DNA from: Coriobacteriia bacterium
GTDB lineage: Bacteria > Actinomycetota > Coriobacteriia > Anaerosomatales > Anaerosomataceae
Assembly: GCA_016938395.1 (NCBI GenBank)
Contig: JAFGUS010000043.1
Span: 1 to 25,598, forward strand
DNA: 25,598 nt
Direction: 5' to 3'
The notes beneath the pieces were generated by a model. It did not search any database. It was not told the origin of the DNA and saw only the letters and a list, made by a program, of their open reading frames with translations. Position numbers and translations under genes: made by a program. Every line of letters begins with the position of its first letter. Within the stretch, counting starts at the first letter, position 1. Of the stretch, positions 1 through 5,336 are shown piece after piece.

Positions 1-1222
1 CGGTCAGCCCGGCTGCAGTAGACAGGCGTTCCGCCTGGACCCGCTCCGTCGTCATGCCGAGCAGCCGGGCCGCCTCGCCGGGGTGCGGCGTCACGAGCGT
101 GGGAGCGTGACGCTTCAGGAGCGGACCGACGTCACCCGCAAACACGTTGAGCGCATCGGCGTCGAGCAGCAGTGGGGTACCCGTCTCACTCACGAGAGCG
201 CGCACAGCTGCAGCGGCGCCCGCTCCGGTGGTGAGCCCGGGGCCGGCGACGACCGCGTCGGCATCGGAGACGGCGGCAAGAACCGGCCCCGCCTCGGCGA
301 TGGAGCCGTCGGCCGCCGAGGGCACCGGGCGAACGATCACGTTGGGAAGCTGAGCGCGGACGACATCGGCGATGCTGTCGGGGACGACGACGTAGACGTA
401 GCCCGCTCCCATTCGAAGCGCGCCGCTCGCGGTCAGCACCGCGGCACCAGCGTATGAGAGCGAGCCGGCCACCACCGCCACTCTGCCGCGCGAGCCCTTG
501 TGGTCGTCGGGACGCGTCGGTGGCAGCAGCGCACGCAGGTCCGCAGGCTCCGGGATCTCAATCGCACCGGAGCGCGCGAGCAGGTCGTGCGCGATACCGA
601 GATCAGCGATGATGACCTCTCCGGCGTGCGCGGCTCCGGGATAGATAAGCAGCCCCGGCTTGAGGGCGCTGAAGGTCACGGTCACGTCTGCGTGGACCGC
701 AGGACCCGTGACGCCTCCGGTGTCCGAGTCGACACCCGAGGGCACATCGGCCGCGATGACCGTCGCGCCCGAGTGTCCGATCGCTGTGATGAGCGACGCG
801 TACGGATCGCGCGCCGGGCCCGTGAAGCCGAACCCGAAGACGGCGTCGACCACGACCGCGGCTTCAGACAGCGCCGTGTGCGTCGCATCAGCGTCTGTCA
901 GCGGTCTCCACGGCACGCCTGCGTCGAGCGCGGCACGGGCCGCGGCGGAGGCCTCCGTGCTGTGGATGCCTGAGGGGTCGGCAGCGAGCACCCGCACGTG
1001 CCGGTCCCGCTCGCGCAGGAGCCGGGCCGCCACCCATCCGTCGCCGCCGTTGTTCCCGGGCCCGCACGCGATCACGACTTCGCCGGACGGAACGCGCCGC
1101 ATCACGTCATCGGCCAGCGCTGCGCCCGCACGCTCCATGAGCGTGGCGATCGTGATGGTGCCGTCTGCGACGGCCTCGTCCTCGGCAGCACGCATCACGT
1201 CGGCAGCAAGCGCGTAGCGCAT
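1..1222 (-). CDS. nnr: Bifunctional NAD(P)H-hydrate epimerase / ADP-dependent dehydratase (partial, C-terminus off window)
   Basis: Repairs damaged NADHX and NADPHX: the N-terminal epimerase (NnrE) interconverts the R and S hydrates and the C-terminal dehydratase (NnrD) uses ADP to restore NAD(P)H. I translated it by hand from ATG at 1222; the frame stays open for 407 codons to the left edge. The epimerase half shows GPGNNGGDGW at residues 54-63, then DAVFGFGFTG and DVPSGVDSDTG. A linker with PDDHKGSRG leads to the dehydratase half, with GRVAVVAGS, VVAGPGL, LLLDADALN (D354, D356, the catalytic region) and TLVTPHPGEA. Two-domain Nnr proteins run to about 500 residues, so roughly 90-100 are missing, a window-edge effect rather than a broken gene. 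It lies 41 bases after acpS and is probably in the glmS transcript. Confidence 0.93.
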   Translation of the reverse strand, partial: MRYALAADVMRAAEDEAVADGTITIATLMERAGAALADDVMRRVPSGEVVIACGPGNNGGDGWVAARLLRERDRHVRVLAADPSGIHSTEASAAARAALDAGVPWRPLTDADATHTALSEAAVVVDAVFGFGFTGPARDPYASLITAIGHSGATVIAADVPSGVDSDTGGVTGPAVHADVTVTFSALKPGLLIYPGAAHAGEVIIADLGIAHDLLARSGAIEIPEPADLRALLPPTRPDDHKGSRGRVAVVAGSLSYAGAAVLTASGALRMGAGYVYVVVPDSIADVVRAQLPNVIVRPVPSAADGSIAEAGPVLAAVSDADAVVAGPGLTTGAGAAAAVRALVSETGTPLLLDADALNVFAGDVGPLLKRHAPTLVTPHPGEAARLLGMTTERVQAERLSTAAGLT

Positions 1223-1263: not shown

Positions 1264-1773
1264 TCAGCTGTCGCCCTCGTCCTCTTCGTTCCCCACCTCG
1301 TCAAGGAACGCACGCGCGCTCTTGAAGGCGGCTGCCAGTTGCTCCCCGGGCGTTTCGGGCTCCGGCTCGCGCTGAGGACGCATGCCGGCCGTGACCGCGA
1401 CTGCGGAGGCGACAGCGTTGGTATGCGTGAAGGAAAGCGACAGGTGCAGCTCCACCACACCCGCGGCCTCGGCAACCTCGGCGGCACGTCCCGAGAGCCG
1501 CGGGATCGGGCGGCCGCGCTCGTCGCGTGTCACTTCGACGTCCCGGAAGCGCATGCCGGAGAATCCGGTCCCGAGCGCCTTCAGGACCGCCTCTTTGGCT
1601 GCGAAGCGCATCGCGTAGTGTATCTCGGGTTTGTTGCGCGCGTCACAGTACGCACGCTCCTCCTCGGAGAAGAGACGCTCCCTGAGGCGGGGCCGGCGTT
1701 CGAGCGCGGCGCGCATGCGGTCGATCTCGACGATGTCGACGCCGAGGCCGGCGACCTGGTGCTCGGAGGCCAT
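1264..1773 (-). CDS. acpS: Holo-[acyl-carrier-protein] synthase AcpS with C-terminal extension
   Basis: Transfers 4'-phosphopantetheine from coenzyme A to a serine of apo acyl carrier protein, activating it for fatty acid synthesis. The family motifs are present: GLGVDIVEI (residues 9-17, Mg-binding D13) and RFAAKEAVLKAL (56-67, with E61 and K65). The third conserved stretch, usually a Ser-His motif, reads HLSLSFTHTNA (110-120): Phe115 stands where His is common and His117 lies two residues on. At 169 residues it is longer than the usual 120-130; residues from about 130 form a tail ending in an acidic run (NEEDEGDS). It starts three bases after the glmS stop, so it is almost certainly co-transcribed with glmS. 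The tail has no function I can assign. Confidence 0.93.
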   Translation of the reverse strand: MASEHQVAGLGVDIVEIDRMRAALERRPRLRERLFSEEERAYCDARNKPEIHYAMRFAAKEAVLKALGTGFSGMRFRDVEVTRDERGRPIPRLSGRAAEVAEAAGVVELHLSLSFTHTNAVASAVAVTAGMRPQREPEPETPGEQLAAAFKSARAFLDEVGNEEDEGDS

Positions 1774-1776
1774 CGG

Positions 1777-3603
1777 TCACTCCACCGTCACTGACTTGGC
1801 GAGGTTGCGGGGCTGGTCGACGTTGCACCCGCGTATCGACGCGATATGGTATGCAAGCAGCTGGAGCGGCACGGTCGCCACGATGGCCGACAGGCTCTCG
1901 GCCGTGGCCGGCACGTAGAGCACGTGCTCGGCATGCTTGCGGATGTCGTCATCCCCGTGCGTTGCCACCGCGATGACACGCGCACCGCGGGCGCGCACCT
2001 CCTGGATGTTGCTCACGACCTTCTCGTACGTGTGGCCTTGTGTCGCCACCACCACAACCGGCACCTCGGGCGTGATGAGCGCGATCGGGCCGTGCTTCAT
2101 CTCGCCGGCCGGATACGCCTCGGCGTGGATGTAGCTGATCTCCTTCAGTTTGAGTGCGCCCTCCATCGCCACCGGCACACCCATGCCGCGGCCGAGGAAG
2201 AGCGACGAGGCAACGCCCGTGTACTCGCGGGCGCACGCTTCGATGTCGTCGTTGCTGCCGAGAATCGCCGAGACGAGTTCGGGAAGGCGCGTGATCTCCT
2301 CCCACAACCGCTCGACCCGCGACTGCTCGAGCGTGCCCTTCGCTTGCGCGAGCTTCAGGGCCAGCACGGTGAGTGCCGCGATCTGGGCCGTGAACGTCTT
2401 GGTGGCGGCCACGCCGATCTCGGGCCCGGCATGGGTGTAGATCACGCCATCGCTCTCCCGGGTGACGCGGCTGCCGACGACGTTGGTCACCGCGAACGCG
2501 CGCGCACCGCGACTCCGTGCCTCGCGAACGCCCGCGAGCGTGTCCGCCGTCTCCCCCGACTGCGTAATGGCCACCACAAGCGTCTCGCAGTCGACTATCG
2601 GGTCCCGGTAGCGGAACTCGCTCGAAACGTCGACCTCCACCGGTATCCGGGCCCACTGCTCGATGAGCGTCTTGGCGACGATCGCCGCATGGTAGCTCGT
2701 GCCACACGCCACGATGAACACGCGCTCGATCGCAGCGATCTCGGCTTCAGTCATCTGGAGCTCCGAGAGTTGGATCGTGCCGTCGGCGCCCATGCGGCCG
2801 CGCAGTGTTTCACGGATAGCCGTGGGCTGCTCGTGGATCTCCTTGAGCATGAAGGTCTCGTAGCCGCCTTTCTCGGCGGCGTCGAGGTCCCACTCCACGT
2901 TCAGGTGCTCCGGCTCGCGAACCACCCCGTCAGCACCGCGCACCTCGGCGCCACCCGACGTCACCCGGGCGACGTCGCCATCCTCGAGCACGAGCACATC
3001 GCGTGTGTACTCAAGGACCGCCGGGATGTCGCTCGCAACGATCAGCTCGCCCTCGCCCACGCCGATGATGAGCGGCGAGTCCTTGCGCGCAGCGACCACC
3101 GCTGCGGGCTCGTCACGGTGCATGACCGCGAGCGCGTAGCTCCCGTCGAGACGCTTGACCGCGCGGGCTACCGCCGCGGCAAGATCGCCCTCGTAGTAGC
3201 TCTCGACGAGGTGCGCCACCGTCTCGGTATCCGTCTCCGAACGCAGCACGTGACCGGTGGCCGCAAGTTCCTCTCTGAGCTCCAGGTAGTTCTCGATGAT
3301 GCCGTTGTGCACCACCACCACAGCACCCGTGCAGTCGGTGTGCGGGTGCGCGTTCTCCTCGTTCGGGCGGCCGTGGGTGGCCCATCGCGTGTGGCCGATG
3401 CCCACGGTGCCGCGGAGCGGCGCCTCGGCCACCGCCTCTGCGAGGTTCACGAGCTTGCCGACGCGGCGCGTGACGGCGATGCCGTCCCCTCCGGCCACAG
3501 CTATGCCGGCCGAGTCGTAACCGCGATACTCCAGACGTGCAAGACCGCCGAGCAGGACGTCGCTCGCCTGCCGGGGGCCACAGTATCCGACGATTCCACA
3601 CAT
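1777..3603 (-). CDS. glmS: Glutamine--fructose-6-phosphate aminotransferase (isomerizing)
   Basis: Makes glucosamine-6-phosphate from fructose-6-phosphate and glutamine, the committed step to UDP-GlcNAc for peptidoglycan; cytosolic. The protein has 608 residues, the standard length. An N-terminal glutamine amidohydrolase domain begins at Cys2 (MCGIVGY), the nucleophile exposed after Met removal, with HTRWATHG (71-78) and HNGIIENY (99-106). Two SIS sugar-isomerase domains follow: ACGTSYHAA (299-307), TQSGETADT (347-355), and KEISYIHAEAYPAGEMKHGP (487-506). The C-terminus ends LAKSVTVE, with K603 in the place of the catalytic lysine. The start has a strong ribosome site (AGGGAGGA, 3612-3619) eight bases upstream. 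The leader carries a glmS ribozyme, so feedback by glucosamine-6-phosphate is expected. Confidence 0.98.
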   Translation of the reverse strand: MCGIVGYCGPRQASDVLLGGLARLEYRGYDSAGIAVAGGDGIAVTRRVGKLVNLAEAVAEAPLRGTVGIGHTRWATHGRPNEENAHPHTDCTGAVVVVHNGIIENYLELREELAATGHVLRSETDTETVAHLVESYYEGDLAAAVARAVKRLDGSYALAVMHRDEPAAVVAARKDSPLIIGVGEGELIVASDIPAVLEYTRDVLVLEDGDVARVTSGGAEVRGADGVVREPEHLNVEWDLDAAEKGGYETFMLKEIHEQPTAIRETLRGRMGADGTIQLSELQMTEAEIAAIERVFIVACGTSYHAAIVAKTLIEQWARIPVEVDVSSEFRYRDPIVDCETLVVAITQSGETADTLAGVREARSRGARAFAVTNVVGSRVTRESDGVIYTHAGPEIGVAATKTFTAQIAALTVLALKLAQAKGTLEQSRVERLWEEITRLPELVSAILGSNDDIEACAREYTGVASSLFLGRGMGVPVAMEGALKLKEISYIHAEAYPAGEMKHGPIALITPEVPVVVVATQGHTYEKVVSNIQEVRARGARVIAVATHGDDDIRKHAEHVLYVPATAESLSAIVATVPLQLLAYHIASIRGCNVDQPRNLAKSVTVE

Positions 3604-3696
3604 AGGTAGGGTCCTCCCTGGGAATGGGATGGGGTCAGGTGTCAGCGGCGGTGTGCCGCAGGGGCGCCGTGCGCCCTCGTGATCGTACTCCCGGTG
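3604..3696 (-). other. glmS leader between ribozyme and start codon
   Basis: This stretch separates the ribozyme from the glmS start. It can form small hairpins (GGGCG-CACGG-CGCCC and GCGG-CACA-CCGC) and ends in the glmS ribosome site. I see no gene in it. After ribozyme cleavage it would lie in the 3' product that carries a 5'-hydroxyl and the glmS open reading frame. Confidence 0.5.
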
Positions 3697-3840
3697 CGAT
3701 GACGCTTTGTCCGCCGCGGTCGCCCGCGGGCTTTGTCATCATCGTATCGACCCCGGGACTAAGGGCCGGGGGGCCATCCGCCGAGTCTTTCGATAAGCCC
3801 TCACCTCGTCACCTGACATCGTGCGTCAGGCCTGGCGCTT
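3697..3840 (-). ncRNA. glmS ribozyme-riboswitch (glucosamine-6-phosphate-activated self-cleaving RNA) in the glmS leader
   Basis: Read on the minus strand, the element opens with AAGCGCC at 3840-3834; cleavage is expected between A3839 and G3838. A P1 hairpin follows (CCTGAC 3830-3825 with GTCAGG 3817-3812). Next come the class core strings GACGAGG (3810-3804), TTATCGA (3796-3790) and TCGGCGGATG (3784-3775), with a P2-like GGGC/GCCC pairing around them. P3 is CCGG/CCGG based (near 3770-3766 and 3756-3752). The P4 domain has an outer stem GATGAC/GTCATC (3740-3735 with 3703-3698), the ACAAAG-type internal segment and an inner stem CCGCGG closed by a GCGA tetraloop (3729-3714). These match the glmS class as I recall it from Bacillus. 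It ends about 93 bases before the glmS ATG, in the correct orientation. Confidence 0.92.
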
Positions 3841-3891
3841 GCGTTCAGTCGGGCGGGCGCCCTCCTCTGCCATGGGTTGCGATCTGAGCGG

Positions 3892-3900
3892 ATTCTACCA
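3892..3900 (-). promoter_or_regulatory. Possible extended -10 promoter for glmS
   Basis: TGGTAGAAT on the minus strand fits an extended -10 element (TG-N-TAGAAT, -10 hexamer 3897-3892). A transcript starting near 3885 would carry about 45 bases before the ribozyme cleavage site. The -35 region is poor: GGTCAC or CGGTCA at about 17-18 bases spacing matches TTGACA in only a few places. Read-through from glmM is an alternative source of transcript. Confidence 0.38.
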
Positions 3901-3950
3901 GAGCGAGCACGCGCGTGACCGGCCGTGGCGACCGCTTCGTGAGCGCACCG

Positions 3951-5285
3951 TTACCCGAGTTCGGCGCTGACGACGGCCACCAGCCTGTCGGCGACCGCAC
4001 GTGCGAGCCCTTCTTCGGCAGCCTCCACCATCACCCGCACCAGCGGTTCGGTGCCCGATGGGCGCACGAGCACGCGTCCGTTGTCCCCGAGCTCGCGCTC
4101 GGCGTCGCGTACCGCATCGGCGATGGCCGCGCTCCCGGACAGTAGACCCCGGTCGGCGACCGGCACGTTGACGAGGACCTGCGGGTAGTGGCTCATGACC
4201 TGCGCGAGCTCCGAGAGCCGCCGGCCCGACCGCTTCACCACCGACGCGAGTTGCAGCGCGGTCACCAGGCCGTCGCCGGTGGTCGCGTGCTCGAGGAAGA
4301 TCACGTGGCCTGACTGCTCGCCGCCAAACGTTGCTCCGGATGCGCGCATCTGATCGAGCACGTAACGGTCACCCACCCGCGTCTTGACGACCGTGATGCC
4401 GCGCTCCTTGAGCGCACGCTCGAAGCCGAGGTTGCTCATCACGGTCGCAACCACGGCCGAGCCGGGCAGCGCACCACGCTCGGCGAGGTCGACCGCACAG
4501 ACGGCCATGATGCGGTCGCCATCGACCTCAGCGCCCGCCTCATCCACGGCCAGCACGCGGTCGGCGTCCCCGTCGTGCGCGATGCCGAGGTCGAACACTC
4601 CGCCGCGCACGAGTCCGGCAACCACGTCGAGATGCGTCGAGCCGCACGCTGCGTTGATGTCCATGCCGTCCCAGTCACAGTTGATCGCCGTCACCTCGGC
4701 GCCGAGCGCCTCAAAGGCGGCCGGTGTCGTGTGCGTGGCGGCGCCATGACCGCAGTCGATCGCGATCTTGAGACCCGCGAGACCGCCGGGGACGGTCGAG
4801 ACAGCGTGCGCCACATAGCGCTCGACCGCGTCGGCGACGACCTCCGCGCGCCCCACAGAAGCCCCGGTGGGGCGGGGATCGGCGTCTTCCGAGACGAGGT
4901 ACTCCTCGATCTCATCCTCGATCTCGTCGGGCAGCTTGAATCCGCCGCGGTCGAAGAACTTGATGCCGTTGTACTCGGCGGGGTTGTGCGAGGCGGAGAT
5001 GACGATGCCGCCATCGGCACCCAGATCGCGCGCGAGGAATGCGACCGCAGGCGTGGGCACCACTCCGGCCCGCAGAGCATCAGCTCCGGCGCTGCAGACA
5101 CCTGCGACTACGGCGGCTTCGAGCATGTCGCCGCTGCGCCGCGTGTCCATGCCGATAACGATGCTGCCGCGGCCCTTGTCGGCAAGGAAGTGCCCCGCTG
5201 CCCGCCCGAGCCGGAACGCGAGCTCGGGCGTCAGGTCGTGGTTGGCCACGCCGCGCACGCCGTCGGTACCGAACAGCCTGGGCAT
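3951..5285 (-). CDS. glmM: Phosphoglucosamine mutase
   Basis: Converts glucosamine-6-phosphate to glucosamine-1-phosphate, the step after GlmS on the way to UDP-GlcNAc. The 444-residue protein is the usual length. It shows the start MPRLFGTDGVRG, the phosphoserine loop ISASHNP (96-102, catalytic S99), the metal loop DGDADR (238-243) and the substrate phosphate loop RPSGTEP (408-414). I chose ATG 5285 because GAGGAGG lies eight bases upstream and family members begin MxRLFGTDGVRG; an in-frame ATG at 5312 would add nine residues but falls in the downstream arm of a hairpin. It follows rpsI by 78 bases with that hairpin between, and precedes the glmS ribozyme, so it is not exposed to ribozyme cleavage. 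Confidence 0.97.
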   Translation of the reverse strand: MPRLFGTDGVRGVANHDLTPELAFRLGRAAGHFLADKGRGSIVIGMDTRRSGDMLEAAVVAGVCSAGADALRAGVVPTPAVAFLARDLGADGGIVISASHNPAEYNGIKFFDRGGFKLPDEIEDEIEEYLVSEDADPRPTGASVGRAEVVADAVERYVAHAVSTVPGGLAGLKIAIDCGHGAATHTTPAAFEALGAEVTAINCDWDGMDINAACGSTHLDVVAGLVRGGVFDLGIAHDGDADRVLAVDEAGAEVDGDRIMAVCAVDLAERGALPGSAVVATVMSNLGFERALKERGITVVKTRVGDRYVLDQMRASGATFGGEQSGHVIFLEHATTGDGLVTALQLASVVKRSGRRLSELAQVMSHYPQVLVNVPVADRGLLSGSAAIADAVRDAERELGDNGRVLVRPSGTEPLVRVMVEAAEEGLARAVADRLVAVVSAELG

Positions 5286-5310
5286 CAGACACGCCTCCTC
5301 GAGATGATGC

Positions 5311-5336
5311 AAGGCCCGCCTGTGAGGGCGGGCCTT
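5311..5336 (-). terminator. Hairpin after rpsI, likely terminator or attenuator before glmM
   Basis: AAGGCCCGCC and GGCGGGCCTT form a perfect 10-bp inverted repeat with a six-base loop, lying 27 bases past the rpsI stop. No T-run follows on the minus strand (it reads CTTGCATC), so classic intrinsic termination is uncertain; termination without a U-tract has been proposed for GC-rich Gram-positives. The same repeat sits 25 bases upstream of the glmM ATG. Confidence 0.6.

Follow-up and report, generated by a model that had tools for sequence, protein, structure and literature searches.

A complete glmS ribozyme in the leader of glmS in a DNA stretch assigned to Actinomycetota, and the wider occurrence of this ribozyme class in the phylum

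The stretch of DNA analysed here (25,598 nucleotides, referred to below as the window; GC content 66.6%) carries on its minus strand the glmS gene (1777..3603), the 608 aa product of which is a glutamine--fructose-6-phosphate transaminase (isomerizing) matched by the profiles NF001484 and TIGR01135 at 859 and 845 bits, respectively. The start of glmS is preceded by a Shine-Dalgarno-like sequence AGGGAGGA (3612..3619), and the gene is followed after 3 nt by acpS (holo-ACP synthase, 1264..1773) and then by nnr (NAD(P)H-hydrate epimerase/dehydratase, 2..1222, extending off the window), both on the same strand. On the other side of the intergenic gap lies glmM (phosphoglucosamine mutase, 3951..5312, minus strand; TIGR01455, 567 bits), upstream of which rpsI, rplM, truA, ECF transporter genes, and rpoA are found, and beyond rpoA secY, adk, a gene for an M24 peptidase that is probably map, and more ribosomal protein genes.

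When the whole window was scanned by cmscan, the only Rfam match at gathering level was RF00234, the glmS ribozyme, at 3850-3687 of the minus strand, covering model positions 1-167 of 167 with 89.1 bits (gathering score 37) and E 1.3e-19. The model built for the order of related genome G323 (the G323 order) scored the same sequence at 137.4 bits, this model including the window sequence itself. The minus-strand segment 3687..3850 in the glmM-glmS gap is confirmed as a complete glmS ribozyme, and since the glmS start codon lies 83 nt past the end of the match, the ribozyme is placed in the 5' leader of glmS. The initial annotation had claimed such a ribozyme upstream of glmS and proposed a covariance-model check of the minus strand; that check has now been run, and its full-length match together with the glmS profile matches confirms the claim, the interval given there (3697-3840) being the RF00234 match minus its unpaired flanks.

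According to the accessible portion of PMC11602151, the glmS ribozyme is cleaved between A-1 and G1, which by the computed coordinates puts the predicted self-cleavage site at A3839 (A-1) / G3838 (G1) (3838..3839, minus strand), exactly where the cut had been predicted before. It is followed on the same strand by helix P1 (3811..3831; 3831-3824 with 3818-3811), the conserved core strand GACGAGG (3804..3810), helix P2 (3769..3802; 3802-3798 with 3773-3769), which encloses TTATCGA and TCGGCGGATG, helix P3 (3748..3768; 3768-3763 with 3753-3748), and helix P4 (3697..3744; 3744-3738 with 3703-3697), within which an inner stem (3730-3724 with 3719-3712) is capped by a GCGA loop; the helices are given by the Rfam match or the structure mapped from it and by covariation. 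The four strings read earlier from the sequence (AGCGCC, GACGAGG, TTATCGA, and TCGGCGGATG) are all present in that order, and the P1 pairing CCTGAC/GTCAGG and the GCGA-capped inner stem match the Rfam alignment. The P4 stem also exists, but the register proposed for it, GATGAC/GTCATC, is three bases off that of Rfam; the repeat GATGATGAC permits both registers.

The fold was compared in an alignment of 40 rows (A1) consisting of the window and 39 relatives from the G323 order, onto which the Rfam structure was transferred via the window sequence; 49 ribozymes were listed for the order (48 and that of G605), of which 40 loci were taken and 39 aligned with the window, L185 being omitted because of its very long P1. 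In A1 95.3% of 1447 pairing cells are paired, and both-sided changes occur in 21 of 37 pairs versus a shuffle mean of 13.4 (0 of 500 shuffles reached as high) and 3-9 pairs when the structure was slid along the alignment. By this comparison of sequences, helices P1, P2, P3, and P4 are judged to be supported by covariation. The strings AGCGCC and GACGAGG are invariant in 40/40 rows, as are many more core columns, and the inner helix adjoining the core (columns 84-87 with 93-96) shows no variation. The strands of pseudoknot P2.2, which we take to be the strand after the cleavage site paired with the core GGCG, are complementary (CGCC and GGCG), but both are invariant, so covariation is uninformative on this element. 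The window itself shows zero deviations in the 53 columns invariant across the other 39 rows, while its second P2 pair is non-standard, A3801-C3770, where the other 39 rows have A-U (34), G-C (3), or G-U (2). Single-sequence folding, with pseudoknots outside the model, gave z -0.40 versus shuffles and did not recover the ribozyme fold; as the fold stability is no better than that of shuffles, the support comes from the covariance model and comparison and not from free energy. A chance match is ruled out by the E value of the RF00234 match and by covariation.

Ahead of the ribozyme an extended -10 element, TGGTAGAAT (3892..3900, minus strand), is situated 52 nt before the cleavage motif, and from it we infer promoter activity and a transcription start near 3885. 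The same pattern, TGNTANNNT, occurs 48-83 nt ahead of AGCGCC in 39/41 loci of the G323 order (the window and 38 of 40 relatives, with L183 and L185 as the exceptions), compared with 50 of 4100 base-shuffled control stretches having an extended -10 in this zone. At ribozyme loci of the class of genome G001 (the G001 class) the element was present in the 48-83 nt zone in 1/30 and anywhere within 160 nt in 5/30. A canonical sigma-70 promoter was dropped as a candidate, as a consensus scan of 3560-4100 returned none; with no -35 box evident, it is the conservation of the extended -10 that carries the case for a promoter. No terminator-like site was found on the minus strand of the same interval.

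The placement of the window was approached through its RpoA, compared with 346 genomes from the phylum that includes ‘Actinobacteria bacterium ATB1’ (locus L051, itself carrying a glmS ribozyme), which NCBI taxonomy assigns to Actinomycetota. A match was obtained in 338 of them, and among the matches listed the window RpoA is 79%, 79%, and 78% identical to those of G323, G372, and G353, respectively, and the next tier follows at 60-66%. On these RpoA identities the window belongs to Actinomycetota, in agreement with the actinobacterial assignment of the initial annotation. Coriobacteriia, order Anaerosomatales, may be guessed at from the GC content of the window and the 1.2-2.9 Mb of the related genomes, as two cultured Anaerosomatales have 66.6-67.7% GC and 1.8-2.1 Mb (PMC9686372). 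Its closest GlmS relatives in the G323 order are 90% identical and come from two ribozyme-bearing genomes (G561 and G549), while the best 80 loci listed from named genome contigs are at most 57% identical. In those 80 named loci, all of which were scanned, the ribozyme occurs in 18, that is, in 17 of 19 Bacillota (classed by title) and in L051; no ribozyme was found in the other 60, of which three are titled Actinobacteria or Solincola, and in some of the ribozyme-less loci there is little DNA ahead of glmS (182 nt in L070, 280 in L015, 289 in L060, and 330 in L057).

The glmS ribozyme is chiefly familiar from Bacillota, Bacillus among them. In the sampled Actinomycetota RF00234 was found in 67 of 346 genomes, so that the earlier suggestion of a taxonomically unusual example is not upheld. 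Within the phylum it was present in 87 of 198 genomes of the G001 class (86 over the gathering score), 55 of 296 genomes of the G323 class (54 over the gathering score), and 14 of 27 genomes of the G323 family; stricter filters were used in searches of more than 40 genomes, and therefore the absence counts are upper bounds. Five genomes of the G323 class that are larger, at 2.9-4.2 Mb (G678, G724, G772, G773, and G776), carry the ribozyme with lower scores of 62.8-79.9 bits and are perhaps a further lineage with diverged copies.

Wherever ribozyme and gene share a contig, the ribozyme is directly upstream of glmS, namely in 48/48 cases in the G323 order, with a gap of 69-132 nt, and in 85/85 in the G001 class. 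In the latter, 106 genomes have GlmS among the rows taken (a few of them partial, with a 52% piece in G098 omitted), and 86 of these have the ribozyme, in 85 cases on the same contig and strand at 31-205 nt and in one on different contigs; GlmS only was recorded in 20 genomes and the ribozyme only in one (G059). The G323 order comprises 61 genomes, 55 with native GlmS or pieces of it, and 48 of these 55 bear the ribozyme, the rest being G323, G353, G372, G534, G550, G552, and G583 (its glmS split over two contigs). In a further three (G522, G544, and G545) GlmS is only 50% identical and the ribozyme is absent, and in G587, G599, and G613 GlmS was not found. In the G323 family of 27 there are 14 genomes with the ribozyme, seven with a distant GlmS or a piece of it and no ribozyme, four with native GlmS (77-78% identical) and no ribozyme (G323, G353, G372, and G575), and two in which GlmS was not found (G601 and G631).

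Two kinds of loss seem to be represented in these relatives. At four native loci, L241 (G372), L243 (G575), L244 (G323), and L245 (G353), the ribozyme is gone while the extended -10 and glmS remain, the former sitting in a short leader as would be expected of a trimmed one, as if the leader had been deleted from the promoter up to the gene; the extended -10 is kept ahead of glmS in all seven ribozyme-less native loci read (L241, L244, L245, L228, L247, L243, and L246). In seven family genomes, G579 (L249), G625 (L250), G563 (L251, the copy being split over two frames), G635 (L252), G522, G544, and G545, a distant GlmS of about 50% identity, or a piece of one, is encoded (49-55%), the ribozyme is absent in all seven, and the native GlmS appears to have been replaced; in the 103-row tree described below, the three distant copies included (G579, G625, and G563) fall with ribozyme-free rows.

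A degenerate remnant in the ribozyme-less relatives was considered and rejected: Rfam at E up to 10 found no glmS match in 10/10 loci (L241, L243, L244, L245, L228, L246, L247, L249, L250, and L251). The order's own model, with matches accepted to E 1, was blank for the seven of these that are native (L241, L243-L247, and L228) and gave only 5-12 bits at E 0.07 or worse in L249, L250, L251, and L255 (G583). The 16.5-bit match of that model in L283 (G522; E 0.094) is taken as chance. In G610 a partial RF00234 match of 26.4 bits over positions 49-88 (L282:427-556), scored by the order's model at 15 bits with E 0.2, could be a remnant or chance. A separate observation concerns those genomes of the G001 class without canonical GlmS among the ones listed, many of which contain a long open frame (about 1030-1600 aa) whose product is 30-36% identical to residues 33-600 of GlmS. 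The frame of G127 (L281:895-4287, 1130 aa) opens with MCGI, followed by a long insertion; residues 254-812 then match NF001484 at 285 bits (below the cut-off of 381), Pfam recognizes SIS only, and the C-terminus is greatly extended. The first 12 long-frame genomes listed (G127, G174, G182, G028, G036, G088, G124, G150, G084, G040, G044, and G045) are absent from the ribozyme list, and the frame is possibly a divergent GlmS under other control.

The ancestry of the gene was studied in a 103-row GlmS tree made up of the window, 51 of the 80 named loci, 17 of the 30 G001-class GlmS loci, 19 of the 35 native GlmS of full length and 3 distant ones of the G323 order, and 12 of 15 ribozyme loci with partial GlmS taken from the phylum search. 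Here the Bacillota rows stand together (100) and are separated from the actinobacterial ones (98), among which the long-branched Chloroflexi row L064 is also found. In a 38-row subset omitting the long or odd rows L031, L036, L047, and L064 support is 100/99 for the Bacillota and 94/88 for the actinobacterial rows, which thereby narrowly miss a star, and the constraint joining the G323 order with Bacillota was rejected with p-AU 0.0123, the group for this AU test having been picked after inspection of the 103-row tree. In the tree of 62 ribozymes the G323 order, the G001 class, and other actinobacterial rows mostly cluster by lineage, but 5 of 17 Bacillota rows stand among the first two on long branches at forks without a star (L014 and L023 with the G323 order, 66/98; L008, L017, and L078 with the G001 class, 85/92); the tree tool warned of long branches meeting. 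Because of these mixed forks and long branches the ribozyme tree is no help for age, and it speaks neither for nor against a transfer of the RNA by itself.

Transfer was one of the origins suggested initially; a recent transfer of the glmS gene from Bacillota is rejected by the AU test and not favoured given the separate GlmS lineages. The other suggested origin, deep ancestry, fits best of the readings but is unproven, the trees being unrooted. From the GlmS separation and the rejected Bacillota grouping an old presence in Actinomycetota with losses is favoured over recent transfer, and with unrooted trees an origin before the Actinomycetota-Bacillota split is possible. In its fullest form, that the ribozyme stood in front of glmS, within its leader, as early as the last common ancestor of Actinomycetota (perhaps one shared with Bacillota) and was inherited with its gene and repeatedly lost upon glmS replacement or trimming of the leader back to the promoter, the proposal may be held evenly balanced between right and wrong, and the wide actinobacterial spread makes it testable.

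In B. subtilis, as stated in the accessible portion of PMC3328962, the ligand stimulates self-cleavage and the 5'-hydroxyl end is attacked by RNase J1, and those of PMC11477304 and PMC2258182 describe a ligand that doubles as cofactor and a binding pocket that is preformed. By analogy with this class, from which ligand, cleavage, and decay route are taken, RNA polymerase would initiate between glmM and glmS, from a dedicated promoter (3900-3892, start near 3885), the 5' leader of the transcript would fold into the ribozyme, abundant glucosamine-6-phosphate would bind the preformed pocket and serve as catalytic cofactor, and self-cleavage would follow at A3839/G3838. The part of the mRNA downstream of the cut, carrying a 5'-hydroxyl end, would then be degraded, most likely by RNase J, leading to less GlmS synthesis and, if acpS and nnr are cotranscribed with glmS, to a drop of their output as well. 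The RNase J profile TIGR00649 scores above its cut-off in 26 of 27 G323-family genomes, which are relatives and not the window's own genome, and the accessible portion of PMC13273304 indicates no covarying overlap of the glmS aptamer with a following expression platform. The class mechanism, RNase J in relatives, and the lack of a terminator-like site or platform overlap make feedback by cleavage and decay the most likely route.

It is very highly probable, in our estimation, that glmS is under product feedback through a functional glmS ribozyme. For this reading count the RF00234 score, the covariation, the glmS adjacency, the extended -10, RNase J, and the absence of the ribozyme where GlmS is distant; against it count the P2 A-C mismatch, the z of -0.40, and the ribozyme-less close relatives. 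The mismatch, breaking a pair kept in 39/39 other rows, and the relatives that lost the ribozyme with the promoter element kept would suit a decaying copy, mostly folded but weakened in activity by P2 and giving weak regulation; this is quite improbable, since no invariant column deviates, both model scores are high (89.1 and 137.4 bits), and one A-C pair inside a five-pair helix is expected, though only as an expectation, to be tolerable. Slightly less credit still is given to recent acquisition of the ribozyme, with or without glmS, from Bacillota, to which the best-known range of the class and the five intermixed Bacillota rows would point: the GlmS of the G323 order stands outside the Bacillota clade (100/99) and their joint grouping is rejected, the ribozyme occurs in several separate actinobacterial groups, and the mixed forks are unstarred and carry the long-branch warning. 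The least credible reading is that the sequence retains the fold but not self-cleavage, acting as a binding-only riboswitch or as some other leader element; it draws on the literature search, in which no assay of cleavage by a copy from Actinomycetota came up, but cleavage-site and core nucleotides are invariant in 40/40 rows and a terminator-like site is lacking from the minus strand of 3560-4100.

With regard to novelty, a literature search of titles and abstract starts found no report of glmS ribozymes in Actinomycetota, nor are they reported in the accessible portions of PMC2258182, PMC3766115, PMC11602151, PMC10668854, PMC11477304, PMC6154101, and PMC13273304; the class is known and was found little described in Actinomycetota, and the present occurrence is not claimed as unreported. 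The mechanism itself would be a known one, and the significance of the data lies in showing that a metabolite-sensing ribozyme whose usual descriptions concern Bacillota extends broadly across Actinomycetota, where losses with the promoter element kept and gene replacements provide natural replicates for studying what the ribozyme is worth to its host. McCown et al. in 2011 are said to have described extra stems in Deinococcus-Thermus copies; Deinococcota glmS ribozymes belong to the same family in another non-Bacillota phylum, and that of Deinobacterium chartae was over cut-off in a control search. In comparison with the B. subtilis glmS ribozyme (RF00234), the window copy shares the full-length model match, the cleavage motif, the core strands, helices P1-P4, and the position in the glmS leader, but differs in its 65% GC, in one P2 mismatch, and in its location in Actinomycetota, whose GlmS is a separate lineage.
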